A program made the translations under genes and the position numbers. Source: an uncultured Sphingomonadales bacterium (lineage in GTDB: Bacteria; Pseudomonadota; Alphaproteobacteria; Sphingomonadales; Sphingomonadaceae). Taken from it: a stretch of 11,071 bases of DNA. The DNA lies in contig CAITOD010000097.1 of NCBI GenBank assembly GCA_903893935.1, forward strand, positions 1-11,071, written 5' to 3'. A model generated the notes under the pieces. It worked only from the letters and a program-made list of their open reading frames with translations, was not told the origin of the DNA and ran no database searches. Of this stretch, positions 1-10,890 are shown one piece after another; within the stretch, counting starts at the first letter, position 1; every line of letters begins with the position of its first letter.

Positions 1-1775
1 ACGCGACGCGCGAACTGGCCCTTCGCGCCATCCGGCGCGGGATGGGCTTTGCCGGGCTCGAAGCATCGATCGGCGGAACAAAGCGCACGTTTGTGGCCGA
101 TTGCATGGCAATGTCGGGCGGCGCCAGTCCGGTTCTGCATCTGCACCGGCAAGCGGGCGGCGCGCTCGATTATGATGCGGCGCGCGGTGCGTTTCTGCCC
201 GGCGCCGGGCGGCAGAACCACACCACCGTGGGGGCTGCGTCGGGCGAACACGATCTTGCCGCGCTGTTGCCGGCAGCCTTGGTCAATGATCCGCTCGGCG
301 CGGCAACGCCGGCCGCACCGGGGCCGGTCTGGCGCGACGAAGCGCCGGGCAAGGCGTTTGTCGACTTCCAGAACGATGTGACGACGGGCGATCTCGCGCT
401 GGCACAGCGCGAAGGCTATGTCTCGGTCGAACACACCAAGCGCTATACAACGCTCGGCATGGGCACCGATCAGGGCAAGACCGCCGCAATGGTGGCGCTG
501 GCGCAAATGGCCGATCTGCGCGGGGTCGATCTGCCCGAGGCCGGGCTGACCACTTTCCGCCCGCCCTATACGCCGGTTACGCTGGGTGCGTTTGCCGGGC
601 CGATGACGGGCGACCATGCCTCACCGATCCGCCGGCTGCCGCTTGCTGCTGCGCACGATGCTATGGGTGCGCTGTGGGTGCCGGCAGGGGCGTGGATGCG
701 CCCGCGCGCCTATCTTCAGCCGGGTGAAACGCTGGGTGAGGCGAGCTTGCGCGAAGCGCGCATGGTGCGCGAAAGCGTGGGCGTGGTCGATGTATCGAGC
801 CTTGCCAAATTCGAGATCGCCGGTCCCGATGCGCTCGATCTGGTCGCGGCGGTCTGCGCCACGCCGGTGGCGAAGCTGGCGGTGGGGCGCGGGCGCTACA
901 CACTCATGCTGCGCGAAGACGGCATGGTCATGGATGATGGCACGCTGTGGCGGCTCGCAGAAGATCGCTGGCTGATCACCAGTTCGACCGGCGGTGCAGC
1001 GCGGATGAGCCGGCATTTGTCTTATGTGACCGATGTGCTGCTCGGCCATCCGCGCGCGGCGGCGGTTGATGTGAGCGAGCACTGGGCAGGGCTGGCCTTC
1101 GCCGGTCCGCGCGCGGCCGATTTGCTGGCCTGCTTGATCGGCACGGCAGCGCTCGCGCATATGGGGCTGATCGACGCCACGCTGGCCGGCGTTCCGGTGC
1201 GCGTGCTGGCGGCCAGTTACAGCGGCGAACGCGCGTTTGAAGTGCACGTGCGCGGGCACGAAGCCGAGGGCGTGTTTGCAGCCCTGGTCGATGCCGCGCG
1301 CAGCGCAGGCGGCGGGGTCTATGGCCTCGACGCGATGGACCATTTGCGCGTCGAAAAAGGCCATGTGGTGATCGGTGCCGAAGCCGACGGGCGCATGACC
1401 CCGGCCGATCTCGGCCTTGGCGGCATGCTGCGCAAGGCGGGCGGGTTCATCGGCTGGCAGGCGCTGACCCGGCCCGCGCTGCATGATGCCGCGACCCGGC
1501 GGCAGCTGGTCGGGCTGACTTCGCTTGACGGCACCGCGATTGCCGAAGGCGCGATGCTGGTCTTGCGCGAAGGCAGCGAGCCGCTTGGCCATGTCACCAC
1601 TTCGGCGCCGCGCGTGGCCGAACCCGGTGCGATTGCGCTCGGCCTGTTGCAGGACGGCGCGGCGCAACATGGGGCGGTGGTGCTGGCATGGTCGCCGACC
1701 CGGCGCAGCAGCATGCGCGTGCGTGTCGGCCCGCCGCTGTTCTATGATGCCGAGGGGGCGCGCTATCGTGAGTGA
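1..1775 (+). CDS. soxA: Sarcosine oxidase alpha subunit, C-terminal part (5' end outside window)
   Basis: Alpha subunit of heterotetrameric sarcosine oxidase, which oxidatively demethylates sarcosine to glycine in the cytoplasm and passes the C1 unit to tetrahydrofolate. The frame is open from the left edge (first whole codon at 3), so about 590 C-terminal residues of a roughly 1000-residue protein are visible; the methionine codon at 42 is internal. Seen in order: the end of the FAD/NAD-binding domain; a linker with the family blocks FVDFQNDVT (near 357), KRYTT (near 438), TDQGKT (near 466) and TTFRPPYTPV (near 549); then a GcvT-like folate-binding domain (about 640-1480) with MLREDGMVMDDG (near 906) and the acidic pair typical of the folate site; then the GcvT C-terminal barrel ending in FYDAEGARY. 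The N-terminal ferredoxin-like region and dinucleotide motifs cannot be checked. soxG overlaps its stop codon. soxB and soxD are expected upstream, as in the usual soxBDAG order. Substrate could be another N-methyl amino acid; the family is secure. Confidence 0.93.
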   Translation, partial: ATRELALRAIRRGMGFAGLEASIGGTKRTFVADCMAMSGGASPVLHLHRQAGGALDYDAARGAFLPGAGRQNHTTVGAASGEHDLAALLPAALVNDPLGAATPAAPGPVWRDEAPGKAFVDFQNDVTTGDLALAQREGYVSVEHTKRYTTLGMGTDQGKTAAMVALAQMADLRGVDLPEAGLTTFRPPYTPVTLGAFAGPMTGDHASPIRRLPLAAAHDAMGALWVPAGAWMRPRAYLQPGETLGEASLREARMVRESVGVVDVSSLAKFEIAGPDALDLVAAVCATPVAKLAVGRGRYTLMLREDGMVMDDGTLWRLAEDRWLITSSTGGAARMSRHLSYVTDVLLGHPRAAAVDVSEHWAGLAFAGPRAADLLACLIGTAALAHMGLIDATLAGVPVRVLAASYSGERAFEVHVRGHEAEGVFAALVDAARSAGGGVYGLDAMDHLRVEKGHVVIGAEADGRMTPADLGLGGMLRKAGGFIGWQALTRPALHDAATRRQLVGLTSLDGTAIAEGAMLVLREGSEPLGHVTTSAPRVAEPGAIALGLLQDGAAQHGAVVLAWSPTRRSSMRVRVGPPLFYDAEGARYRE

Positions 1776-2259
1776 AATGACCGTCAGCCCGGCCGGCGCC
1801 TTGCTGGCGCTCGATGTGTGGAACCCCGCTGACGGGCCTGCGGTGTCGGCAGCGCTGGGCCTGACTTTGCCCGGACCGGGGCGCGCGGAAAGCGGCCTGG
1901 CCGGTGCCGCGCTGCGGCTCGGGCCGCGACGCTGGTGGCTCGACGGGGCAGGCTTTGTACTTTCCGCGCTGGCAGGCACCTTGCAGGGCCTCGGTACCGT
2001 CACCCCGGTCGAAGGCGGCTGGACGCGCGTCTCGCTCGCAGGCGCCGGCTGGCGCGATCTGATCATGGAAAGCGGCATGATCGATGCCGAAAGTGCGGCA
2101 TTCGGCCCGGGTTCGGTCGCGATCAGCCTGCTGTGCCACGCGCGTTGCGTGATCCATGTGTGCGCAGCAAACCGGTGCGAAGTGTTTGTGCCGGCCAGTT
2201 ATACCGACCATTGCCTGACGCAGTGGCGCGCGACGGGATGGCAGCATATCGCCGCCTGA
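1768..2259 (+). CDS. soxG: Sarcosine oxidase gamma subunit
   Basis: Small gamma subunit of heterotetrameric sarcosine oxidase, a structural partner of the alpha subunit with a fold related to the GcvT C-terminal part. The protein is 163 residues from GTG at 1768, or 160 from ATG at 1777. I chose the GTG because a GAGGGGG tract (1752-1758) sits 9 bases upstream and the 8-base overlap with the soxA stop fits translational coupling; the ATG three codons later remains possible. Family-like features are the GWRDLI segment (residues 94-99), the acidic stretch followed by FGPGSVA (112-118), and CHARCVIHV then VPASYTDHCLTQW near the C terminus, which correspond to the conserved C-terminal block of SoxG. 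The N-terminal third is low in conservation, as usual for this family. The position directly after soxA supports the call strongly. Confidence 0.88.
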   Translation: MSEMTVSPAGALLALDVWNPADGPAVSAALGLTLPGPGRAESGLAGAALRLGPRRWWLDGAGFVLSALAGTLQGLGTVTPVEGGWTRVSLAGAGWRDLIMESGMIDAESAAFGPGSVAISLLCHARCVIHVCAANRCEVFVPASYTDHCLTQWRATGWQHIAA

Positions 2260-2333
2260 CCGGCGCGGTGAAAAGGTTTGGTATGCAAAGACCTGGCGCG
2301 TTACAGCCGGGCTTTTGGGGGAAGAAACAAAAG

Positions 2334-3692
2334 ATGGCGCAACAACAGGCTCCCGCGGTCCGCTCCGGCTGGTTTGCCGGATCGGGTATCGATCAGATGA
2401 CCGCGCGCCAGTGGTATGTGCTGATCGTGCTGTCGCTGGTCTATGCGATCAACATCGCCGACCGTTATGTCATCAGCACGGTGATGGAATCGATCAAGCA
2501 CGATCTGCATGTCACCGACAGCGAGTTGGCCTGGCTTACCGGCACCGCGCTGGCGGTGTTCTACGTGTCGGCCGGCATTCCGATCTCGGCACTCGCCGAT
2601 CGTTACAGCCGCCGCAATATCATTTCCGCCGCCTTGGTGATCTGGTCGGCGCTGACGGTGTTCACCGGGCTGTCGCGCACGTTCGCGCAGATGTTTGCGG
2701 CACGCGTCGGGGTCGGCGTTGGCGAAAGCGGGGGTACGCCGCCTTCAACTTCGATGCTGGCCGACTGGTTCAAGCCGCACCAGCGGACGTTTGCGCTGAC
2801 GTTCTGGGCGCTCGGCGCGTCGCTCGGGGCGTGGATTGGCGCCGATGTCGCGGGAAGGATCGCCGATGCATTCAGCTGGCGCGCGGCGTTCTATGCGATG
2901 GGCGTGCCCGGGCTTGTCATGGGCATCCTGATTTTCCTCACCATCCGCGAACCGCAGCGCGGAATGATGGATGGCGTTGACAGCGAGACCGCGCGCGCCG
3001 CGATCAAGCGGGCGCAAGTGAAAGTGCCGATCGTCTCGGCCTTGCGCACGATCCTCTCGCAACCCGCGACCGTCCACCTGATGATGGGCAGCGCCATTAC
3101 CGCGCTGTGGGGCTGGGGGCTGATGTGGTGGACACCGACGTTCCTGCAACGCAGCTATCACCTGACGGCGGGCCAGGCCGGCGAAATTCTGGGGCCGATG
3201 TATCTTGTCGCGGGCAGCGCTGCCACTGTCGGTACCGGGCTGCTGATGGCAACCAGTGTGATGACCGATCCCAAGCGTGTGCTGTGGCTGATGGCGCTGG
3301 TGGTCGGCGTGGTCACCGTGCCGTCGTTCATGATCTATTGGACCGACGATCTGGCGGTCGCCAAAATCTGCCTGTGGATTCTGGTGCCGGCGATGTATTT
3401 TTATATCGGGCCGTGTTTTGGCCTGCTCAACAATATGGTGCCACCACAATTGCGCGCGATGGCCTCGGCGGTCACGCTGCTGCTCGCCAATATCGCCAAT
3501 CTGGTGATCGCCCCGCAATTCGTCGGGTTCGTCTCGGACTATGTGGCGGGGCCGGGCGGGGCCGATGCCGCGTCGCTGCGGTTTGCGTTGCTGTTGCTTG
3601 CCCCGACCGGATTCTGGGCGACGTTTCACTACATCGCCGCGACGCGCAAGATTGATGAGGAAATCGCCCGCGTGCGCAACGCGCAGTTCTGA
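2334..3692 (+). CDS. Major facilitator superfamily transporter, Spinster-like
   Basis: Inner-membrane secondary transporter of 452 residues with about twelve hydrophobic helices, the usual MFS length. ATG 2334 is chosen because a GGGGGAAG Shine-Dalgarno-like tract (2317-2324) lies 9 bases upstream; an in-frame ATG at 2283 lacks one. Visible marks are NIADRYVIS in helix 1 (residues 40-48), the loop 2-3 motif A variant ALADRYSRRN (86-95), RVGVGVGESGGTPP in helix 4 (124-137), SWRAAFYAMGVPG (181-193) and a charged central loop (about 204-232) separating the two six-helix halves. These fit the Spns-like branch widespread in sphingomonads and related bacteria, whose members have very different substrates, so the substrate cannot be read from sequence. 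It follows soxG by 74 bases on the same strand with no evident terminator, so co-transcription with the sarcosine oxidase genes, and import of sarcosine, a methylated glycine or a related compound, is a reasonable inference only. Confidence 0.9.
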   Translation: MAQQQAPAVRSGWFAGSGIDQMTARQWYVLIVLSLVYAINIADRYVISTVMESIKHDLHVTDSELAWLTGTALAVFYVSAGIPISALADRYSRRNIISAALVIWSALTVFTGLSRTFAQMFAARVGVGVGESGGTPPSTSMLADWFKPHQRTFALTFWALGASLGAWIGADVAGRIADAFSWRAAFYAMGVPGLVMGILIFLTIREPQRGMMDGVDSETARAAIKRAQVKVPIVSALRTILSQPATVHLMMGSAITALWGWGLMWWTPTFLQRSYHLTAGQAGEILGPMYLVAGSAATVGTGLLMATSVMTDPKRVLWLMALVVGVVTVPSFMIYWTDDLAVAKICLWILVPAMYFYIGPCFGLLNNMVPPQLRAMASAVTLLLANIANLVIAPQFVGFVSDYVAGPGGADAASLRFALLLLAPTGFWATFHYIAATRKIDEEIARVRNAQF

Positions 3693-3705
3693 ACCGGCGG
3701 GTTCA
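3690..3705. terminator. Small perfect hairpin at convergent gene junction, possible terminator
   Basis: TGAACC-GGCG-GGTTCA forms a perfect 6-base-pair stem with a 4-base loop. Its left arm contains the stop codon of the transporter gene. It lies in the 38-base gap between two convergent genes, where a bidirectional terminator would be expected. No T tract follows on either strand, so an intrinsic terminator is not proven. Confidence 0.35.
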
Positions 3706-3743
3706 GATCGGGCGGATAAGATCGGGCGGGTCAGATCGGGCGG
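3706..3743. repeat. Three tandem copies of GATCGGGCGG, 14-base period
   Basis: The 10-mer GATCGGGCGG occurs at 3706-3715, 3720-3729 and 3734-3743, spaced by ATAA and GTCA, giving a 14-base period. The third copy lies inside the convergent PilZ gene and encodes its last residues. The array looks like recent slippage or a duplication at the junction; no function can be assigned. Confidence 0.8.
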
Positions 3744-4135
3744 GCTGGTCCATACCGGGGGGTTTGGACGCGGTGGAGTTTGCTGACGCGCCAGTTGGCT
3801 TCGTCCTTGATCCGCGCGATTTCATTGCGAATGGCGGTGGCAAGCTCGACGGTATCGACCGCGTCGCTGAGCAGAACGCCAAAGTCGGTGCCGCGCACCC
3901 ACCGCACGACGCCATCGAGTTCGGGTGCTCCGGGCAGCGTGATCACCACTGCTTCGCCGCGCAGAGGCGGCTTTTCCTTGCAGGTCACACCCAGACCGCG
4001 CTCGGACATGTTGCGGATGATGATCGGGAGCGCTTTGCCGCCGCCCCATTGCAGCGTGCCGCGCACGAGATGAGCGCGGCGGTCCTCGCGTTTGGGCGTG
4101 TCAGAGACCAAATCGCGGTCCGAGAACGTCATCAC
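3731..4135 (-). CDS. Single-domain PilZ protein (c-di-GMP receptor family), copy 1
   Basis: Small cytoplasmic protein of 134 residues consisting of one PilZ domain. PilZ domains bind cyclic di-GMP and transmit it to motility, surface or envelope processes; the partner here is unknown. The two binding motifs are both present: RxxxR as R16-E-D-R-R20 and [D/N]xSxxG as N42-M-S-E-R-G47. The beta-barrel continues through ITLPGAPELDGVVRW (65-79). The start is GTG at 4135, or the adjacent ATG at 4132; an in-frame TAG lies two codons upstream of the GTG, so no longer form exists. A weak GGGA precedes it. The GTG puts the upstream repeat element exactly as far away (81 bases) as in the neighbouring paralog. 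About half of the aligned residues match the protein at 4327-4722. The last residues are encoded by a copy of the junction repeat. Confidence 0.87.
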   Translation of the reverse strand: MMTFSDRDLVSDTPKREDRRAHLVRGTLQWGGGKALPIIIRNMSERGLGVTCKEKPPLRGEAVVITLPGAPELDGVVRWVRGTDFGVLLSDAVDTVELATAIRNEIARIKDEANWRVSKLHRVQTPRYGPARPI

Positions 4136-4326
4136 CAGCTATCCCGTCATCAAATGGGCGAGACACCGACGCGCCTGCCTCGGCTTGATTCCCCATCCGC
4201 GATCATAAGAACCGCTGGTAAACGGATCGTTTACCGCAAGGCTGATTTGCCTTTCGAAAGCGCAAAAAGCGCCGGATCGAGTATTAAAACGAGACAGTCG
4301 CTCCAATCCGGGTCATCCAAACCGGC
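4136..4326. other. Intergenic region between the two PilZ genes, rich in dyads
   Basis: This 191-base stretch is richer in A/T than its surroundings and holds no convincing gene. Besides the dyad at 4217-4235 it contains AAGGC-TGATTT-GCCTT (4238-4253) and the perfect palindrome CTTTCGAAAG (4251-4260), then a duplicated GCGC around an A5 run. This is where the copy 1 promoter should lie if it is transcribed alone. I could not identify -35/-10 boxes with confidence. Confidence 0.6.
4216..4235 (-). promoter_or_regulatory. Putative operator: perfect dyad GGTAAACG-GAT-CGTTTACC
   Basis: Positions 4217-4235 read GGTAAACG-GAT-CGTTTACC, a perfect 8-base-pair inverted repeat with a 3-base spacer, typical in size for a dimeric regulator's binding site. 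The 18 bases 4216-4233 match 4803-4820 upstream of the other PilZ gene at 16 positions. The element lies 81 bases from the GTG start of copy 1. A transcription-factor site is inferred; a transcribed hairpin is the alternative. Confidence 0.55.
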
Positions 4327-4722
4327 TCATATTGTGCGCCGCGAGCCGGTCGAGCTGTTGGTCGCCACGTGGTGCAGCCGGCTGACGGTCCAGTCGGGAC
4401 CGTGCAGCGAGCGCGCGAGTTCGACACGAATCGTGGTGGCGAGCGCTTCCAGATCGACCGCGTCGCCCAGTTCGATGCCGATATTGGCGCACGATTTCCA
4501 GCGAACCACGCCGTCGAGTTCGGGCGATCCGGGCAACGAGATCTTCACCGCCCGATCGAGCGCCGGCGGGTTGGCAAGGCAACGGACACCCAGCCCGCGC
4601 GTTGAGAGATTGCGCACCACCAGCGGGATAACGGCGCCGCAGTCCAGTTTCAAACTGCCCCGGATCAGCCTTGCGCGTCGATCTTCCCGGATTGCCACGT
4701 CGAACTGTTGCCCATGGTCCAT
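4327..4722 (-). CDS. Single-domain PilZ protein (c-di-GMP receptor family), copy 2
   Basis: Paralog of the neighbouring PilZ gene, 131 residues, one PilZ domain, no signal peptide or membrane segment. Both cyclic di-GMP-binding motifs are intact: R12-E-D-R-R16 and N38-L-S-T-R-G43; ISLPGSPELDGVVRW (61-75) nearly copies the other paralog. The reading frame could begin 15 codons earlier at 4767, but ATG 4722 is preferred: an AGGTGA Shine-Dalgarno (minus strand, 4728-4733) lies 5 bases away, and this start gives an N terminus matching the length of the paralog. The last residues (about 118-131, polar and serine-rich) do not align with the paralog and may be unstructured. Gene and upstream element appear to have been duplicated as one unit. 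The effector partner is unknown. Confidence 0.87.
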   Translation of the reverse strand: MDHGQQFDVAIREDRRARLIRGSLKLDCGAVIPLVVRNLSTRGLGVRCLANPPALDRAVKISLPGSPELDGVVRWKSCANIGIELGDAVDLEALATTIRVELARSLHGPDWTVSRLHHVATNSSTGSRRTI

Positions 4723-4834
4723 TTTCGTCACCTGTTCGATCCCTCCGATTTCGCGGCCCTGGGGCAAAACCCCCCGACTTGCCGGCGCGTGTTACCCGGG
4801 AATGGTAAAGGGATCGTCTAGAGCGGGCTTGCGG
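4723..4834. other. Leader region of PilZ copy 2 and 3' flank of the acyl-CoA operon
   Basis: This 112-base gap separates the end of the catabolic operon from PilZ copy 2 on the same strand. It holds the AGGTGA ribosome binding site at 4728-4733, a GGGG-CAAAA-CCCC mini-hairpin (4761-4773), and the shared 18-base element at 4803-4820. I see no strong rho-independent terminator after the operon, so read-through into the PilZ genes is possible. Confidence 0.55.
4803..4820 (-). promoter_or_regulatory. Second copy of the element upstream of a PilZ gene
   Basis: TGGTAAAGGGATCGTCTA matches 4216-4233 at 16 of 18 bases and starts 81 bases from the ATG of PilZ copy 2, the same spacing as in copy 1. The two differences break the internal dyad seen in copy 1, but a different half-site pair, TTACC-7-GGTAA (4792-4808), overlaps here. 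Conserved position suggests a shared regulatory site; duplication without function is the alternative. Confidence 0.5.
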
Positions 4835-5704
4835 TCATTGCCCGATCACGGCGCTTGCTTCCATTATCACGCGCTGATCTTCTGCGCAGGCCGCCAGGGC
4901 CAGCCCGTCGGAGGTTTGGCGCAAGGCAAGGTTCAGTGTCTCTCCGGCAATTGCGGGAGAGAGCGCACGGAACCGGAACGACGCCAGGCGGTTGTCGCCC
5001 AGACGGCGCCGCGCCAGATCGAGCAGCAGGCTGGCGGTCAGCGGCCCGTGCACCAGAAGCCCGCGATAGCCTTCGGCATCGCGCGCATAAGCCAGATCAT
5101 AATGTATGCGGTGGCTGTTGAATGTCAGCGCCGAATAGCGGAACAGCAGCACGCTCGATGGCACGATCGCGCGCGTCAGTGCCCAGCCAGACGGATCGAA
5201 CCGGGCCGGTCCGGGCGGCGGCGGAACCGGTGCAGCACCGGCGGGCGCGGCGTCGCGATAGACCACGGTCTGGGTTTCCGACACCAGCAATGCGTCGCCC
5301 GCGCTGGTCCGGTGTTCGATATCGACAAACACCAGTGGACCGCCCGCGCCCTTGCGCGCGGTAATCGCCGCGATCCGCGACACGCGGCGAACGGCGGCAC
5401 CGGCGGGCAGCGGGGCGTGAAATTCCATCGCGCTCGATGCCCACATGCGGCGGGGCAGCGCGACCGGCGGCAGGAAACTTGCGGCGCTGTCGTCGCGAAG
5501 CGGGTGGCCATCGGGGCCGAGTGCCGCGGTTGCCGCGTCGGGCAGGCCGAGGCACCAGTGCAGGCCTTGCGGTGCATGTCCGTCGGCGGGGGCAGTGCGG
5601 TCAAATGTGGCGCACCAGCGCGCGACCAGCCGGGCATCGACCCGATCTTCGTGCGATTGCTCGCGCCCGATGCAGCTATCCCATGCGTTGATCAATTCCG
5701 GCAT
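4835..5704 (-). CDS. meh: FAS1-like/MaoC double-hotdog hydratase, mesaconyl-C4-CoA hydratase-like
   Basis: Enoyl-CoA hydratase of 289 residues, predicted cytoplasmic, from the HTD2/mesaconyl-C4-CoA hydratase group. In that family the enzyme adds water to mesaconyl-C4-CoA to give citramalyl-CoA (or acts on itaconyl-CoA). The N-terminal hotdog half carries FLPPVALPRRMWA (residues 77-89), close to the group's signature, followed by a GGPLVFVDIEHR strand (121-132) and ETQTVVYR (143-150). The C-terminal half has the signature LLFRYSALTFNSHRIHYD (186-203) with the conserved histidines, then EGYRGLLVHGPLTA (211-224). Start ATG 5704 shares one base with the upstream stop (TGATG), so translation is probably coupled. 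It is the last gene of the operon, next to Mcd-like and two genes after the Mct-like enzyme, which supports this substrate over generic R-hydratases. Exact substrate is inferred. Confidence 0.78.
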   Translation of the reverse strand: MPELINAWDSCIGREQSHEDRVDARLVARWCATFDRTAPADGHAPQGLHWCLGLPDAATAALGPDGHPLRDDSAASFLPPVALPRRMWASSAMEFHAPLPAGAAVRRVSRIAAITARKGAGGPLVFVDIEHRTSAGDALLVSETQTVVYRDAAPAGAAPVPPPPGPARFDPSGWALTRAIVPSSVLLFRYSALTFNSHRIHYDLAYARDAEGYRGLLVHGPLTASLLLDLARRRLGDNRLASFRFRALSPAIAGETLNLALRQTSDGLALAACAEDQRVIMEASAVIGQ

Positions 5705-7287
5705 CAGTTCTGATTGGCCAGCAGCCCGCGCGCGATCACGTGCGCCTGGATTTCGGCCGCCCCTTCGAAAATGTTGAGAATGCGCGCATCGCACAGCACG
5801 CGGCTGATCTCGTATTCGAGCGCATAGCCATTGCCGCCGTGGATCTGCAACGCGGCGTCGGCATTGCTCCACGCGGTGCGCGCGGCGAACAGTTTGGCCA
5901 TGCCTGCTTCGATATCACAGCGCTTGCCGGTCACTTTGGCGCGCGCGGCGGCATATGTCAGCTCGCGCGCCATGACCAGATCGACCAGGCTCATTGCCAG
6001 CTTGTCGGCCACGCGCGGGAACGCGACAATCGCTTTGCCGAACTGCTTGCGGTTCTGCGCGTAGTCGAGCCCGAGTTCGAGCGCGCGGCGCGCCACGCCC
6101 ACCGCGCGCGCTGCGGTCTGGATGCGCGCCCCTTCAAAGGTGCGCATCAGGTGCTTGAACCCCTGGCCCTGCTCGCCGCCAAGCAAAGCATCCGCCGGCG
6201 CGGTCAGGCCGTCGAACTGGAGCGCATATTCGCGCATCCCGCGATAGCCGAGCACTTCGATTTCGCTGCCGGTGAGGCCTTTGGCGGGGAACGGATCGGC
6301 TTCGGTGCCCCGCGGTTTGGGGACGAGCAGCATCGACAGGCCGCCATACCCGGTCTGATCGGGCAAAGTGCGCGCGAGCAGCGTCATCAGGTCCGACCGG
6401 CTGGCATGCGTGATCCAGGTCTTGGCGCCGTCGATCACCCATTGGCCTTCGATCAGGCGCGCGCGGGTCTGCAAGGCGCCGAGGTCCGATCCGGTGTCGG
6501 GCTCGGTGAACACGGCCGTGGGCAGCACTTCGCCGCTGGCAATGCGCGGCAGCCAGTGCGCCTTTTGCGCTTCGGTGCCGCCGAGCACGATCAGTTCGCC
6601 CGCGATTTCCGATCGCGTGCCAAGCGAACCCGCGCCGATCCAGCCGCGCGACAGTTCTTCGGTGATTACGCACATCACGAGCTTGTCGAGCCCGAGCCCG
6701 CCGTATTGTTCGGGAATGCACACGCCGAACGTGCCAAGATCGGCCATTGCCGCAACCGTGGCATCGGGGATCAGCGCATTGGCAAGGTGCCACTTGTGCG
6801 CATGCGGCACGATTTCGGCGTCGGTGAAGCGGCGGAACTGGTCGCGAATGGTATCGAGTTCGGCATCGTGAAAGCTTTCGCCCGGCCATTGCCCTGCGGC
6901 CAGCAGCGCGGCGAGATCAGCACGCAACGGCGCGCAATCGGCTTCGACCAGATTGGCCACCGCCGCGCGCAGGCGCTGCGCGGCCTCGGTCAGGCCGAGA
7001 TCGGCGGGGCGCACCAATTCGTTCTGCCCCATCGGCAATCCGCCCAGCATTTGCGCCAGCGTTTCGGCAAAAGCGAGCTGCGCGACCAGCGCATCGACCG
7101 GGTTCTCGCCGTTCTGCGCCAGCCACGCGCTGACCGCTTCGAGCGCGGCGACGCTGGTGGCGATCCAGGCAAAGCCATGCGCCGCGCGCTGTTCCTGGTC
7201 GATCGACCGCGTGGCGAGCCGCGCGGCCAGCGCCGTGCGCGCTTCGCCAAGATAGGCGTGCGCCGCTTCGAGCGCCGCCGCACTCAT
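5704..7287 (-). CDS. mcd: Long acyl-CoA dehydrogenase, methylsuccinyl-CoA dehydrogenase-like
   Basis: FAD-dependent acyl-CoA dehydrogenase of 527 residues, about 140 longer at the N terminus than ordinary family members. That extra helical domain, with RAAHGFAWIATSVAAL (34-49) and GGLPMGQNELVRPADLGL (82-99), is characteristic of methylsuccinyl-CoA dehydrogenase, which oxidises (2S)-methylsuccinyl-CoA to mesaconyl-C1-CoA in the ethylmalonyl-CoA pathway. The catalytic core begins near 143 (LDTIRDQFRRFTD, 144-156), with FGVCIPEQYGGLGL (187-200), FTEPDTGSDLGAL (260-272) at the flavin, ITHASRSDLM (292-301), FEGARIQTAARAVGVARRAL (384-403) and the C-terminal IFEGAAEIQ (506-514) with Glu508 as the likely catalytic base. 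Start ATG 7287 overlaps the thiolase stop (ATGA); a longer in-frame start at 7332 lies inside the thiolase gene and is less likely. Electrons would go to electron-transfer flavoprotein. The identification rests on recalled family similarity. Confidence 0.83.
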   Translation of the reverse strand: MSAAALEAAHAYLGEARTALAARLATRSIDQEQRAAHGFAWIATSVAALEAVSAWLAQNGENPVDALVAQLAFAETLAQMLGGLPMGQNELVRPADLGLTEAAQRLRAAVANLVEADCAPLRADLAALLAAGQWPGESFHDAELDTIRDQFRRFTDAEIVPHAHKWHLANALIPDATVAAMADLGTFGVCIPEQYGGLGLDKLVMCVITEELSRGWIGAGSLGTRSEIAGELIVLGGTEAQKAHWLPRIASGEVLPTAVFTEPDTGSDLGALQTRARLIEGQWVIDGAKTWITHASRSDLMTLLARTLPDQTGYGGLSMLLVPKPRGTEADPFPAKGLTGSEIEVLGYRGMREYALQFDGLTAPADALLGGEQGQGFKHLMRTFEGARIQTAARAVGVARRALELGLDYAQNRKQFGKAIVAFPRVADKLAMSLVDLVMARELTYAAARAKVTGKRCDIEAGMAKLFAARTAWSNADAALQIHGGNGYALEYEISRVLCDARILNIFEGAAEIQAHVIARGLLANQN

Positions 7288-8513
7288 GCGCGCTCGAACA
7301 CCGCTGCGATCCCCTGACCGCCGCCGATGCACATCGTTTCAAGCCCGTAACGCCCACCCCGGCGCACCAGTTCGCGCGTGAGATTGGCAAGGATGCGACC
7401 GCCGGTGGCGCCGATCGGGTGCCCCAGCGAAATGCCCGACCCGTTGACATTGAGCATGTCGAGCCGGCTGTCGTCCGCGCTCCAGCCCCAGCCTTTGAGC
7501 ACGGCGAGCACTTGCGGGGCAAACGCCTCGTTCAGTTCGACCAGATCGATCTGGTCCCAGCTCAGCCCGGAGCGCGCAAACAGCCGTTCGACCGCGGGGA
7601 CCGGGCCCATGCCCATCCGGCTCGGGTCGCACCCCGCTGCGGCCCACGAATGGAACCACGCGATCGGTTCGAGCCCAAGTTCGTGCAGCTTGTCTTCGGC
7701 CACCACGAGGCAGGCGGCGGCGGCATCGTTCTGCTGGCTGGCATTGCCCGCGGTCACCACTGCGCCGGGGATCGTGGCGCTTTCGATCGCGCGCAATTTG
7801 CCAAGCGTCGCCATGCTGGCATCGGGACGATAGCCTTCGTCGTGATCGAACAGCACCGGATCGCCCTTTTTCTGCGGCACAGGCACCGGCACGAGTTCAT
7901 CGGCAAACAGCCCTTGCGCCCAGGCTTCCGTGGCGCGCTGGTGGCTGCGAACGGCATAGGCATCGCATTCCTCGCGCGTGATGCCATAGTCGCGGGCGAG
8001 ATTTTCGGCGGTTTCGATCATCCCCGAAATCACCCCGAAGCGTTCGATCGGCTGCGACATCAGCCGCCCGCGCGTGAGCCGGTCGTGCAGCACCAGATTG
8101 CCCATGCGCGCACCGTGACGAATGTCGGTGGAGTAATGTTCGACATTCGACATCGATTCAACGCCGCCCGCGACCACCACATCGGCAGCACCCGTCTGCA
8201 CCATCATCGCCGCGTTGACGACGGCCTGCAGCCCCGATCCGCAGCGCCGGTCGACCTGGTAGCCCGGCACATCGAGCGGCAGCCCGGCGGCAAGCCACGA
8301 CCAGTGGCCGATCGCCGGCGCTTCGCCGCTGCCATAGCCTTGCGCAAAGATCACATCATCGACCCGCGACGGATCGACCCCGCTGCGCTCGATCAGCGCC
8401 TTGAGGATCACCGCGCCGAGCGGCCCGGCGGTGAGCGGCGCGAGCGCCCCGCCGAACTTGCCGACCGGGGTGCGCAAAGGCGAAACGATGGCGGCGCGGC
8501 GTAATTGGGTCAT
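7284..8513 (-). CDS. Thiolase family protein (acetyl-CoA C-acyltransferase)
   Basis: Degradative-type thiolase of 409 residues, which cleaves 3-oxoacyl-CoA with free CoA to acetyl-CoA (or propionyl-CoA) and a shortened acyl-CoA. The full catalytic set is present: nucleophile Cys91 in DRRCGSGLQA, NEAFA at 328-332, His365 in GHPIGATGGR, and Cys395 in CIGGGQG. Other family blocks are AGGVESMSN (115-123) and TAGNASQQNDAAAA (254-267). The last differs from the GNASGxNDGAAA of biosynthetic thiolases and is closer to the FadA5-like degradative branch. ATG 8513 overlaps the preceding stop (ATGA) and has AGGA 8 bases upstream (minus strand, 8522-8525). It sits between the Mct-like and Mcd-like genes, so it may supply methylsuccinyl-CoA by splitting a methyl-branched 3-oxodicarboxylyl-CoA; this is inference. 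A role as an acetoacetyl-CoA thiolase cannot be excluded. Confidence 0.9.
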   Translation of the reverse strand: MTQLRRAAIVSPLRTPVGKFGGALAPLTAGPLGAVILKALIERSGVDPSRVDDVIFAQGYGSGEAPAIGHWSWLAAGLPLDVPGYQVDRRCGSGLQAVVNAAMMVQTGAADVVVAGGVESMSNVEHYSTDIRHGARMGNLVLHDRLTRGRLMSQPIERFGVISGMIETAENLARDYGITREECDAYAVRSHQRATEAWAQGLFADELVPVPVPQKKGDPVLFDHDEGYRPDASMATLGKLRAIESATIPGAVVTAGNASQQNDAAAACLVVAEDKLHELGLEPIAWFHSWAAAGCDPSRMGMGPVPAVERLFARSGLSWDQIDLVELNEAFAPQVLAVLKGWGWSADDSRLDMLNVNGSGISLGHPIGATGGRILANLTRELVRRGGRYGLETMCIGGGQGIAAVFERA

Positions 8514-9709
8514 CTGGCGGTTCCTACAAGTCCGGAGTCGATCAGGCGGGCGATCGCACCCGACGCGAGGCCGAGGCGTTCGGCAAGCACCATTTCGCTG
8601 TGTTCGCCATTGCGCGGGGCAGGGCGGGGTGCCTCGCGCGGGGTGGCGGGCAGCGTGGCAAAGGCGCCTGCGGCGGGATATGTCGCGCCGCTGGGATTGG
8701 CAGCGGCACCAAACAGCGGGTTTTCGGCCACCAGCGCGGGGTCCATCGCCGCTTCGTGCATCGTCCGGTAAGCCGAATGGACAATTCCGCCGGCATCGAA
8801 GGCTGCGGCCAGATCGCTGTGACGGCGCGCGCCGATCGCTGCTTCAAACAGCGGATAGAGCGCATCGCGATGCGTATAGCGCAGGCCGTCGTCGGCCGCG
8901 AACGCGACCCCGCGCGCCGCTTCGATGGCGCCGATCGCTTCGCCCAGCCCGAGCGCTGCGACCAGATTGGCCCATTGCCGGTGCGTCACCACCACGATCA
9001 TTGTGCGCACGCCGTCGGCGGTCACGAAATCGCGGCCGAACAGCCCGAACACGGTGTTGCCCAGCCTTGGCCGGTCGGCACCGGTGGTGATGACTTCGGC
9101 CAGACTGCCGAGATTGGCCACCGTTCCGATGGCAACGTCGGACAAGGGCAGGCGCACTTCGCCGCCTTCGCCACTGGCAGCGCGGCGATGCAGCGCCGCC
9201 ATCAGCGCAAAGGCAGCATAAGCCCCGGTGAGCAAGTCCCACGCCGGCAGCACATGATTGACCGGATCGGGCCCGGCGCCGGTCAGCATCGGATAGCCGA
9301 CCGCGTTGTTGACGGTGTAATCGAGCGCCGGGCTGCCATCGGCCCAGCCCATCACGCGCACAGTGATCAGGTCCTTGCGCCCTTCGGCGAGCGTATCGTG
9401 CGCGAGAAAGCCTTTGGCGGGGAAATTGGTAACGAATTGCCCGGTTGCACGCACCAATGCCTGCAGCAGTTCGCGCGCTTCGGGGCGGCCGAGATCGAGC
9501 GCCAGCGAGCGTTTGGCGCGGTTGAGATTTTCCCAATAGAGCGAGGCGTTGTCGGCGGTCACCGGCCAGCGGTGGTAATCGGGGCCGCCGCCGATCTGGT
9601 CGACCCGGATCACTTCGGCGCCCATTTGCGCAAGATAGAGCCCGCACGTCGGCGCGGCGACGAACGACGACGCCTCGATCACCGACAGGCCGGCGAGCAG
9701 CGGGTACAT
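8510..9709 (-). CDS. mct: Family III (CaiB/BaiF) CoA-transferase, mesaconyl-CoA C1-C4 transferase-like
   Basis: Family III CoA-transferase of 399 residues. The sequence resembles mesaconyl-CoA C1-C4 CoA transferase (2-methylfumaryl-CoA isomerase), which moves CoA within mesaconate from C1 to C4. Matching blocks are LSVIEASSFVAAP (8-20), LAQMGAEVIRVDQIGGGPDY (26-45) followed by HRWPV, FVTNFPAKGFL (92-102), ALDYTVN (128-134), NHVLPAWDLLTGAYAA (151-166) and GNTVFGLFGRDF (217-228). Asp158 aligns with the catalytic aspartate of the family that forms an acyl anhydride intermediate. The C terminus has the usual APRNGEHSEMVL block (364-375). The frame is open further upstream, but ATG 9709 is chosen because it matches the family N terminus and lies 5 bases after the preceding stop; GAGG precedes it at a short distance. 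Nearby Mcd-like and Meh-like genes handle the enzyme's expected substrate and product, strengthening the specific call. Confidence 0.8.
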   Translation of the reverse strand: MYPLLAGLSVIEASSFVAAPTCGLYLAQMGAEVIRVDQIGGGPDYHRWPVTADNASLYWENLNRAKRSLALDLGRPEARELLQALVRATGQFVTNFPAKGFLAHDTLAEGRKDLITVRVMGWADGSPALDYTVNNAVGYPMLTGAGPDPVNHVLPAWDLLTGAYAAFALMAALHRRAASGEGGEVRLPLSDVAIGTVANLGSLAEVITTGADRPRLGNTVFGLFGRDFVTADGVRTMIVVVTHRQWANLVAALGLGEAIGAIEAARGVAFAADDGLRYTHRDALYPLFEAAIGARRHSDLAAAFDAGGIVHSAYRTMHEAAMDPALVAENPLFGAAANPSGATYPAAGAFATLPATPREAPRPAPRNGEHSEMVLAERLGLASGAIARLIDSGLVGTAR

Positions 9710-9714
9710 TGGCC

Positions 9715-10890
9715 TCAGCCCAGCCCGGCGGCGAAATCGCGCAGCATCTGCTTGGCGATCACCAGTTGCATGATTTGCGTGGTGCCTTCGTAAATGCGAT
9801 AGATCCGCGCATCGCGGAAAAACCGTTCGGCTTCGTATTCGGCGAGATAGCCCGCACCGCCGTGGATCTGCACGCAGCGATCGGCGACACGGCCGCACAT
9901 TTCCGAAGCGAACATCTTGAACGCGGCGGCTTCCTTGAGGATTTTGGTGCCCTGATCGGCTTTGGCTATGGCGTCGCGCATCATGCATTGCGCGGCATAG
10001 ATTTCGGCATAGCTGTCGGACAGCATCGCCTGGATCAGCTGGAAATTGGCGATCGGTTCGCCAAACGCCTTGCGCTCGGTGGCATAGCGCGTCGCGGTAT
10101 CGAGCATGCGGCGGGCATAGCCGGCGCTGGCTGCTCCCACCGACAGCCGCCCGTTGTCGAGGCTCTGCATGGCGGTGGCAAACCCTTTGCCCTCTTCGCC
10201 GCCGAGCAGCGCGTCGCCGGGCACAAACACGTCGTCAAACATCAGATCGCCGATGTGGCTGCCCGACTGGCCCATCTTCTTGTCCGATTTGCCGCGCGAC
10301 ACGCCCGGACTGTCGAGCGGGACCAGAAACGCCGAGACATGCGCGTTCTTCGGCAGGTTTTCCTTCGACGTCCGGGCCATGATCAGCCCCACTTTGGCAA
10401 ACGGTGCATTGGTGATGTAGCGTTTGGTGCCGTTCAGCACATAGCCGTTGCCGCTGCGCACCGCGCTCGTCTGCAACCCGGCCGAATCCGATCCCGATCC
10501 GGGCTCGGTCAACCCGAACGAAGCGACTTCGCCCGCGGCCAGACGCGGCAGCCAATACGCCTTCTGTTCCGCCGTGCCGGCATTCCTGATCGCCGAACAG
10601 ACCATGCCGAGGTTGATCGATATCAGCGAACGATAGGCGGGCATCGCATAAGACAGCGTGTGGATCGTTTCGATATATTGCGACACGTTCATCCCGGCGC
10701 CGCCGTATTCTTCGGGCATGGTCAGACCGAACAGGCCCATATCGGCCATTTCCTGCCGAAGCGCCTCGGGAATGGCGTCACTGGCAATCACTTCGGCTTC
10801 GGCCGGCACCAGCCGCTCGCGCACATAGCGTTCGAGCTGCGCGTGGAACTGGGCGAAAATTTCCGGGTCCATGCCGGGGTTGGTGGTCAT
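9715..10890 (-). CDS. Acyl-CoA dehydrogenase, short/medium-chain type
   Basis: FAD-dependent acyl-CoA dehydrogenase of 391 residues, normal family length, introducing the alpha-beta double bond of an acyl-CoA and passing electrons to electron-transfer flavoprotein. Visible blocks are MGLFGLTMPEEYGGAGM (51-67), FGLTEPGSGSDSAGLQ (125-140) at the flavin, NGTKRYITNAPFA (153-165), GEEGKGFATAM (231-241), RKAFGEPIANFQLIQ (273-287), CVQIHGGAGY (339-348) and IYEGTTQIM (366-374), where Glu368 is at the catalytic-base position used by short/medium-chain dehydrogenases. ATG 10890 is chosen for the GAGG (minus strand, 10899-10902) 8 bases upstream; ATG 10872 lacks one. It follows the upstream gene by 10 bases and precedes the Mct-like gene by 5. 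It lacks the N-terminal extension of the Mcd-like enzyme, so it probably acts on a different, earlier intermediate. Substrate not determinable from sequence. Confidence 0.92.
   Translation of the reverse strand: MTTNPGMDPEIFAQFHAQLERYVRERLVPAEAEVIASDAIPEALRQEMADMGLFGLTMPEEYGGAGMNVSQYIETIHTLSYAMPAYRSLISINLGMVCSAIRNAGTAEQKAYWLPRLAAGEVASFGLTEPGSGSDSAGLQTSAVRSGNGYVLNGTKRYITNAPFAKVGLIMARTSKENLPKNAHVSAFLVPLDSPGVSRGKSDKKMGQSGSHIGDLMFDDVFVPGDALLGGEEGKGFATAMQSLDNGRLSVGAASAGYARRMLDTATRYATERKAFGEPIANFQLIQAMLSDSYAEIYAAQCMMRDAIAKADQGTKILKEAAAFKMFASEMCGRVADRCVQIHGGAGYLAEYEAERFFRDARIYRIYEGTTQIMQLVIAKQMLRDFAAGLG

Follow-up and report, generated by a model that had tools for sequence, protein, structure and literature searches.

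An 11,071-base stretch of DNA (the window), which is the whole of contig C97 in the genome of an uncultured Sphingomonadales bacterium (3.25 Mb in 755 contigs, 82% complete), carries a run of five minus-strand genes. Open reading frames (ORFs) and a Pfam scan gave their order as ACAD1-Mct-thiolase-Mcd-Meh, encoding an acyl-coenzyme A (CoA) dehydrogenase, a CaiB/BaiF CoA transferase, a thiolase, a methylsuccinyl-C1-CoA dehydrogenase-type enzyme, and a hydratase. These genes probably encode the final steps of a catabolic route of the beta-oxidation type, in which methylsuccinyl-C1-CoA would be converted to pyruvate and acetyl-CoA by Mcd, Mct, Meh, and a lyase. Of 112 distinct related loci, 33 have all five genes side by side on the same strand, a grouping that exceeds chance, and among 296 genomes of the order, every Mcd-bearing one that lacks the ethylmalonyl-CoA pathway gene for crotonyl-CoA carboxylase/reductase (Ccr) has Mct (63/63).

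We infer each reaction of the route from the observed gene content, gene order, homology, active-site residues, and co-occurrence. ACAD1 would begin the oxidation of a branched dicarboxylyl-CoA, a hydratase and a 3-hydroxyacyl-CoA dehydrogenase would continue it (many relatives have a short-chain dehydrogenase/reductase [SDR] gene with the cluster), and the thiolase would cleave the resulting 3-oxoacyl-CoA to acetyl-CoA and methylsuccinyl-C1-CoA. Mcd would convert the latter to mesaconyl-C1-CoA, and Mct would shift the CoA within the molecule from C1 to C4, giving mesaconyl-C4-CoA. Meh would add water to form (S)-citramalyl-CoA, which a CitE-type lyase, encoded elsewhere in the window's genome and within the cluster in some relatives, would split into pyruvate and acetyl-CoA. 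The most speculative part of the proposal is the substrate that feeds the route; one candidate is 4-methyladipyl-CoA (from 3-methyladipate), which would give every gene a role.

Enzymes encoded by the operon

An earlier examination of the letters alone (the sequence-only reading) had singled out three genes as one operon with overlapping genes: a long acyl-CoA dehydrogenase with an Mcd-type N-terminal domain, a CaiB/BaiF transferase with catalytic Asp158, and a hydratase with Meh-type signatures. All three are open minus-strand frames with confirmed coordinates, and Asp158 is present in the transferase. The overlaps also hold, at 1 to 4 nt: Mct and the thiolase share 4 nt (8510 to 8513), as do the thiolase and Mcd (7284 to 7287), and Mcd and Meh have 1 nt in common (5704). 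However, the sequence-only reading had omitted the thiolase, which lies within its own coordinates, and ACAD1, which is separated from Mct by a gap of 5 nt.

By homology, the dehydrogenase (5704 to 7287, minus strand; 527 amino acids [aa]) is of the Mcd, or (2S)-methylsuccinyl-C1-CoA dehydrogenase, type. Its best solved-structure match was the Mcd of Paracoccus denitrificans (6es9; 611 bits, 59% identity), with the runner-up at 294 bits. The N-terminal extension is present, since the alignment to 6es9 spans residues 18 to 523 whereas the core Pfam domains start at residue 143. The published account of this enzyme (PMC5798300) names Arg252, Arg376, and Arg421 together with Ser248, Thr418, and Glu380 as carboxyl-holding residues, Ala285 and Phe287 as the methyl pocket, Glu535 as catalytic, and Trp318 and Thr320 as close to the flavin adenine dinucleotide. 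The window protein retains all 11 of these active-site residues, from the three arginines and the methyl-pocket Ala and Phe to the catalytic Glu and its neighbors. They were invariant in 88 of 88 Mcd rows from the fetched loci, a set that includes the window, repeats, and Ccr-linked Mcds; in the control 8ciw, the next relative in the PDB, 8 of the 11 were kept. In a tree, the window protein fell inside the Mcd clade, which also holds the Mcd of Paracoccus and those linked to Ccr, the 31 Mcd rows being split from 8ciw and other dehydrogenases with support of 87/86, which is under the starred level, and with very long outgroup branches. Within the clade, 14 operon-type rows grouped with the window at 95/97, and the operon-type proteins of L041, L046, and L050 fell outside this group.

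The Mct-like transferase (8510 to 9709, minus strand; 399 aa) most closely matched the solved Mct structures of Chloroflexus (8apq, 338 bits) and Roseiflexus (7xkg, 334 bits), with the next kind of protein at 90 bits. Asp165, Arg47, Tyr136, and Leu43 are given as key residues of the Chloroflexus enzyme (PMC9813914), and the first three of these have their equals in Asp158, Arg47, and Tyr131 of the window protein. The Mct of Novosphingobium sp. Fuku2-ISO-50 is 87% identical to it. Among 112 distinct homologs, the catalytic Asp and Arg47 were invariant (112/112), and the Tyr was kept in 94 and replaced by Phe in 16. Phylogeny agreed with this assignment: in an analysis whose 121 rows include repeats and the window, 23 rows joined Chloroflexus Mct in a clade with 100/100 support, separate from five other CaiB proteins.

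For the hydratase (4835 to 5704, minus strand; 289 aa; Pfam PF13452), the best solved relatives were 8huc and 8khg, each at ∼167 bits (E ∼5e-48). The latter is named itaconyl-CoA hydratase, and many close homologs carry the JGI name 3-methylfumaryl-CoA hydratase. An itaconyl-CoA hydratase has been described as doubling as a mesaconyl-C4-CoA hydratase (PMC12290011), and we propose from these similarities that the Meh/Ich-like window protein is a mesaconyl-C4-CoA hydratase.

The remaining two genes suggest what may precede these steps. The thiolase (7284 to 8513, minus strand; 409 aa; Pfam thiolase domains) scored above the cut-off of a single model, PRK06205 (687 bits; cut-off, 551), and we propose that it frees methylsuccinyl-C1-CoA and acetyl-CoA. 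Models did not decide its substrate, with PcaF at 359 bits (cut-off, 597) and BktB at 363 bits (cut-off, 725). ACAD1 (9715 to 10890, minus strand; 391 aa) opens the run as far as the window shows it and encodes a short-chain-type enzyme with Pfam acyl-CoA dehydrogenase domains. Its closest solved relative was the human short-chain acyl-CoA dehydrogenase (262 bits), and no NCBIfam model reached its cut-off; its proposed role is to start the beta-oxidation round. No lyase gene was detected in the window.

Conservation and co-occurrence in related genomes

The 33 complete five-gene clusters came from 120 loci representing 112 distinct Mct proteins (8 pairs were repeated), and they answer the question of whether gene order is conserved in relatives. 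At an identity of at least 45%, the same-strand neighbors of Mct across the 112 distinct loci were the thiolase in 76, ACAD1 in 71, Mcd in 67, Meh in 54, and the SDR in 41. These counts are lower bounds because 27 of the distinct loci are shorter than 15 kb. An IclR-type regulator gene was found on the opposite strand in 28 of the 112. In seven loci, the operon thiolase was absent and an SCPx-type thiolase was present together with an HMG-CoA-synthase-like protein; at >70% identity, no distinct locus had both thiolases, an exchange that fits a required thiolase step. Genes in relatives were delimited with a home-made ORF caller that occasionally gave a wrong start or strand, and gene identities were taken from blastp and tblastn labels. 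Other dehydrogenases, ACAD9 and ACAD36, accompany the cluster in some loci.

Genes for CitE-type (HpcH/HpaI) lyases lay within the cluster or next to it at 6 of the 112 distinct loci, each as an open frame: on the cluster strand in L036, L060, L066 (the same as L119), L158, and L054 and divergently in L155. The types in L060, L158, and L119 are 31 to 37% identical to one another. In Sphingobium estronivorans AXB (L119), a single strand carries Mct, the thiolase, Mcd, Meh, a CitE-type gene, a 3-hydroxyacyl-CoA dehydrogenase gene, and two enoyl-CoA hydratase genes, with no ACAD1 in the stretch examined. The window's own genome encodes, outside this contig, three full-length CitE-type proteins and a fragment, one of them 56% identical to the cluster-borne type of L060. 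Lyase genes were seen in 7 of the 120 loci against 1.5 expected by chance, a rough guide given that the two figures come from differing search methods and that shared ancestry is ignored.

For co-occurrence across 296 genomes of the order Sphingomonadales, a gene was scored as present at an E value of no more than 1e-120 (Mcd), 1e-60 (Mct), or 1e-80 (Ccr). Mct was present in 118 genomes, Mcd in 87, and Ccr in 27. Mcd and Ccr occurred together in 24 genomes, and the remaining 63 Mcd genomes all belong to the window's family (f1) and all have Mct. Ccr was detected in none of these 63, the window's own genome being 82% complete. Mct and Ccr were both present in a single genome (G098). In the 63 Ccr-less Mcd genomes, Mct and Mcd were no more than 12 kb apart in 35 and not within 12 kb in 28, and the coupling between the two genes is therefore more than linkage.

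In the 24 genomes with both genes, Mcd and Ccr are adjacent by coordinates, and in the loci read they adjoin an ethylmalonyl-CoA mutase-like gene. Its position beside Ccr led us to take this gene as that of the presumed mutase Ecm. As a query in 50 genomes, it had matches at 70% identity or more in all 7 of the Ccr genomes tested and a partial one (73%) in G014, and none of the 42 family f1 genomes had a match above 41%. PF19315 was rejected as a presence test for mesaconyl-C1-CoA hydratase (Mch), with matches in 50 of 50 genomes via short MaoC proteins; because of these hits, Mch was counted only where the match covered most of the profile. Full-length Mch was then present in 5 of the 7 Ccr genomes and in none of the 43 Ccr-less genomes, where short MaoC proteins might still serve.

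Taken together, the gene order, the 63/63 association, the absence of ethylmalonyl-CoA pathway genes from the sampled genomes, and the CitE-type lyases in some clusters support the proposal of the sequence-only reading that Mcd, Mct, and Meh are wired into a hybrid line leading to citramalyl-CoA. Trees in which the proteins fell outside their clades would have spoken against that proposal, and those for Mcd and Mct put both inside. Its further suggestion of a distinct C5-dicarboxylate route holds in part: the evidence favors a separate route, but the module seems to be the closing section of an operon for beta-oxidation and not a line that stands by itself.

Several side observations concern the clusters and their surroundings. 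A four-gene version, ACAD1-Mct-Thl-Meh, was found in L038, L040, L042, and L044 (from genomes lacking Mcd) and in L047 and L052 (with Mcd elsewhere in the genome). Beyond the Sphingomonadales, Mct homologs occur in records of Caulobacteraceae, Phenylobacterium, and other alphaproteobacteria (L149 to L157, L160, and L161), and at several of these loci the neighbors of Mct include genes for a dehydrogenase of the ACAD9 type and an enoyl-CoA hydratase-like protein. The run is longer in L036 and L060, where the genes upstream of ACAD1 encode a CitE-type lyase, another transferase of the CaiB type, a protein resembling L-lactate dehydrogenase, and a GlcD-like FAD oxidase, followed by the SDR. A separate locus of the window's genome (L002, positions 73 to 3678 of G000:C523) encodes a thiolase, a single-domain RipB/Ich-like MaoC protein, a CitE-type lyase, and an acyl-CoA dehydrogenase and is a candidate source of citramalyl-CoA lyase. 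In Sphingobium psychrophilum AR-3-1 (L158), positions 2630 to 4299, a short distance upstream of the cluster, encode the alpha and beta subunits of a Rieske ring-hydroxylating oxygenase, a possible hint to the upstream substrate. In the window itself, the operon is adjoined by a plus-strand gene for a major facilitator superfamily transporter (2337 to 3692; TIGR00893, 158 bits against a cut-off of 395), a possible importer. Downstream of the operon lie two similar small minus-strand ORFs, one (3731 to 4135) matching PilZ marginally, at 21 bits against a cut-off of 22.5, and the other (4327 to 4767) with no Pfam match. The contig start truncates a sarcosine oxidase alpha-type gene (42 to 2259, plus strand; SO_alpha_A3 and GCV_T domains), which is followed by a SoxG-type gene.

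Weighing the proposed route against alternatives

A number of observations weigh against the proposed route. Leu or Ile at position 43 is said to be conserved throughout intramolecular transferases (PMC9813914), and the window transferase, with Pro43 where Chloroflexus has Leu43, lacks this published Mct feature. Most of the 112 distinct homologs (87) also have Pro at this position; the others have Leu (16), Gln (7), Ile (1), or Ser (1). The protein also scored 356.5 bits to TIGR04253 (2-methylfumaryl-CoA isomerase), the best of the seven models listed, against a cut-off of 725. For the thiolase, PRK06205 carries a generic acetyl-CoA C-acetyltransferase name. The CitE-type proteins of the window's genome scored 133 to 166 bits, below the RipC/Ccl cut-off of 375, and no CitE-type lyase was found near the cluster in 106 of the 112 distinct loci (the 27 short loci included). 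All 40 genomes tested have CitE-type genes, whether they carry Mct or not; whole-genome presence of a lyase was therefore dropped as evidence, and closeness to the cluster was used instead. Finally, Mct cannot always be fed by this Mcd, because 54 of the 118 Mct genomes lack Mcd at the threshold used. Loci read from nine of these genomes comprised the four ACAD1-Mct-Thl-Meh loci named above, three that have a thiolase and may or may not have ACAD1 (L048, L065, and L067), L053, where Mct is joined by a weak Meh, and L043, which has Mct alone.

These 54 genomes could be accounted for if the cluster served the second half of the 3-hydroxypropionate bi-cycle, in which propionyl-CoA and glyoxylate would yield methylmalyl-CoA and then mesaconyl-C1-CoA, with Mct, Meh, and a lyase leading on to pyruvate and acetyl-CoA. 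Mct and Meh are known from this bi-cycle (PMC9813914), and a partial version has been reported for Kentron symbionts (PMC6593406). However, such a route would leave Mcd, accompanied by Mct in all 63 cases in the window's family, without a role, as it would ACAD1 and the thiolase, and full-length Mch was missing from all 43 Ccr-less genomes, though single-domain MaoC proteins might perform that step; we regard this explanation as very unlikely. A variant ethylmalonyl-CoA pathway, in which methylsuccinyl-CoA would come from ethylmalonyl-CoA, acetyl-CoA would be assimilated, and Mct and Meh would replace the methylmalyl-CoA branch, would suit an Mcd that sits in the Mcd clade with all published residues, and the generic acetyl-CoA C-acetyltransferase-type thiolase could supply acetoacetyl-CoA. 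Against it stand the absence of Ccr from the 63 Mcd and Mct genomes (other carboxylases were not searched for), the lack of Ecm matches above 41% in family f1 (unrelated mutases were not searched for), and the distribution of full-length Mch. After these searches, the ethylmalonyl-CoA pathway was disfavored as the source of methylsuccinyl-CoA, and we hold this variant to be very unlikely.

Degradation of free methylsuccinate, mesaconate, or itaconate, in which a CoA transferase would activate the acid before Mcd and the hydratase act, would give identical end products, and a pseudomonad cluster is proven for methylsuccinate (PMC12290011). Pro43 could mean that the transferase is not strictly intramolecular, and two related clusters have a second CaiB-type gene. 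This explanation is nevertheless highly improbable: ACAD1, the thiolase, and the SDR would have no function in it; in pseudomonads, the dehydrogenase uses a C4-CoA ester (PMC12290011) and needs no Mct; and no itaconate CoA transferase, family I transferase, or MmgE/PrpD isomerase was found by Pfam among the 10 ORFs of the window, the rest of the genome not having been searched. There is likewise only a very small chance that a different, larger dicarboxylyl-CoA is degraded and that the names Mcd, Mct, and Meh mislead. ThnP shifts CoA between the two carboxyls of one molecule and thereby lets an acyl-CoA dehydrogenase continue (PMC11659651), and both Pro43 and the extra dehydrogenases ACAD9 and ACAD36 in some loci would be compatible with a larger substrate. 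ThnP, however, is a family I transferase rather than a CaiB-type enzyme, all 11 Mcd specificity residues are kept, including the methyl pocket and the three carboxyl-binding arginines, and the CitE-type lyases fit citramalyl-CoA.

Beyond the window, it is about an even bet that the conversion of methylsuccinyl-C1-CoA to pyruvate and acetyl-CoA belongs to a widespread, undescribed Sphingomonadaceae route. Such a route would take methyl-branched dicarboxylates to acetyl-CoA and methylsuccinyl-C1-CoA, reuse Mcd and Mct outside both carbon-assimilation cycles, and recruit differing CitE-type lyases in several lineages; its substrates might include 4-methyladipyl-CoA from isoprenoid-like or methylated cyclic compounds. 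A limited search of excerpts from open-licence papers yielded no description of this route, which is weak evidence of absence, and no bacterial 3-methyladipate route was among the matches listed. Single genes are already named in databases as 2-methylfumaryl-CoA isomerase and 3-methylfumaryl-CoA hydratase, and one sphingomonad genome paper places these two under carbon fixation (PMC9967899). If the route is real, Mct and Meh in a sphingomonad genome would be no evidence for the 3-hydroxypropionate bi-cycle, nor Mcd for the ethylmalonyl-CoA pathway. Methylsuccinyl-C1-CoA would gain a thioester-preserving exit to pyruvate and acetyl-CoA, more Mct and Mcd homologs would become available for work on synthetic CO2 fixation and C5 dicarboxylates, and a testable question would follow: which branched dicarboxylate do these bacteria degrade?

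Comparison with known systems

The window Mcd resembles that of the ethylmalonyl-CoA pathway in its clade, N-terminal extension, and 11 active-site residues. In contrast to that pathway, the family f1 genomes examined lack Ccr, Ecm, and full-length Mch, and mesaconyl-C1-CoA would pass to its C4 isomer instead of to methylmalyl-CoA. With the 3-hydroxypropionate bi-cycle of Chloroflexus and Roseiflexus, the operon shares the Mct clade, the catalytic Asp, Arg47, and Tyr, and the proposed order from mesaconyl-C1-CoA through the C4-CoA ester to citramalyl-CoA. Unlike in the bi-cycle, mesaconyl-C1-CoA would derive from Mcd and not from methylmalyl-CoA, the window Mct has Pro43 instead of Leu43, and the genes neighbor a thiolase and dehydrogenases. 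Pseudomonas reinekei MT1 has a 4-methylmuconolactone (mml) pathway whose thiolase probably splits 4-methyl-3-oxoadipyl-CoA into methylsuccinyl-CoA and acetyl-CoA, with methylsuccinate then taken on by an acetyl-CoA hydrolase/transferase; that pathway is not known to include an Mcd-Mct-Meh set.

In the itaconate/methylsuccinate cluster of Pseudomonas and Cupriavidus, the itaconate CoA transferase forms a C4-CoA ester from the free acid (PMC12290011). That cluster needs no intramolecular transfer because its dehydrogenase acts on the C4-CoA ester, whereas the window combines a C1-type Mcd with Mct. The ThnP/ThnO pair of anaerobic naphthalene degradation offers a different parallel (PMC11659651): there, too, beta-oxidation leaves CoA at the wrong carboxyl and an intramolecular transferase relocates it, although ThnP is a family I transferase, the substrate is a cyclic C9 diacid, and no citramalyl-CoA is involved. 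By analogy, ThnP is a precedent for an intramolecular move of CoA within a dicarboxylic acid during beta-oxidation (PMC11659651).

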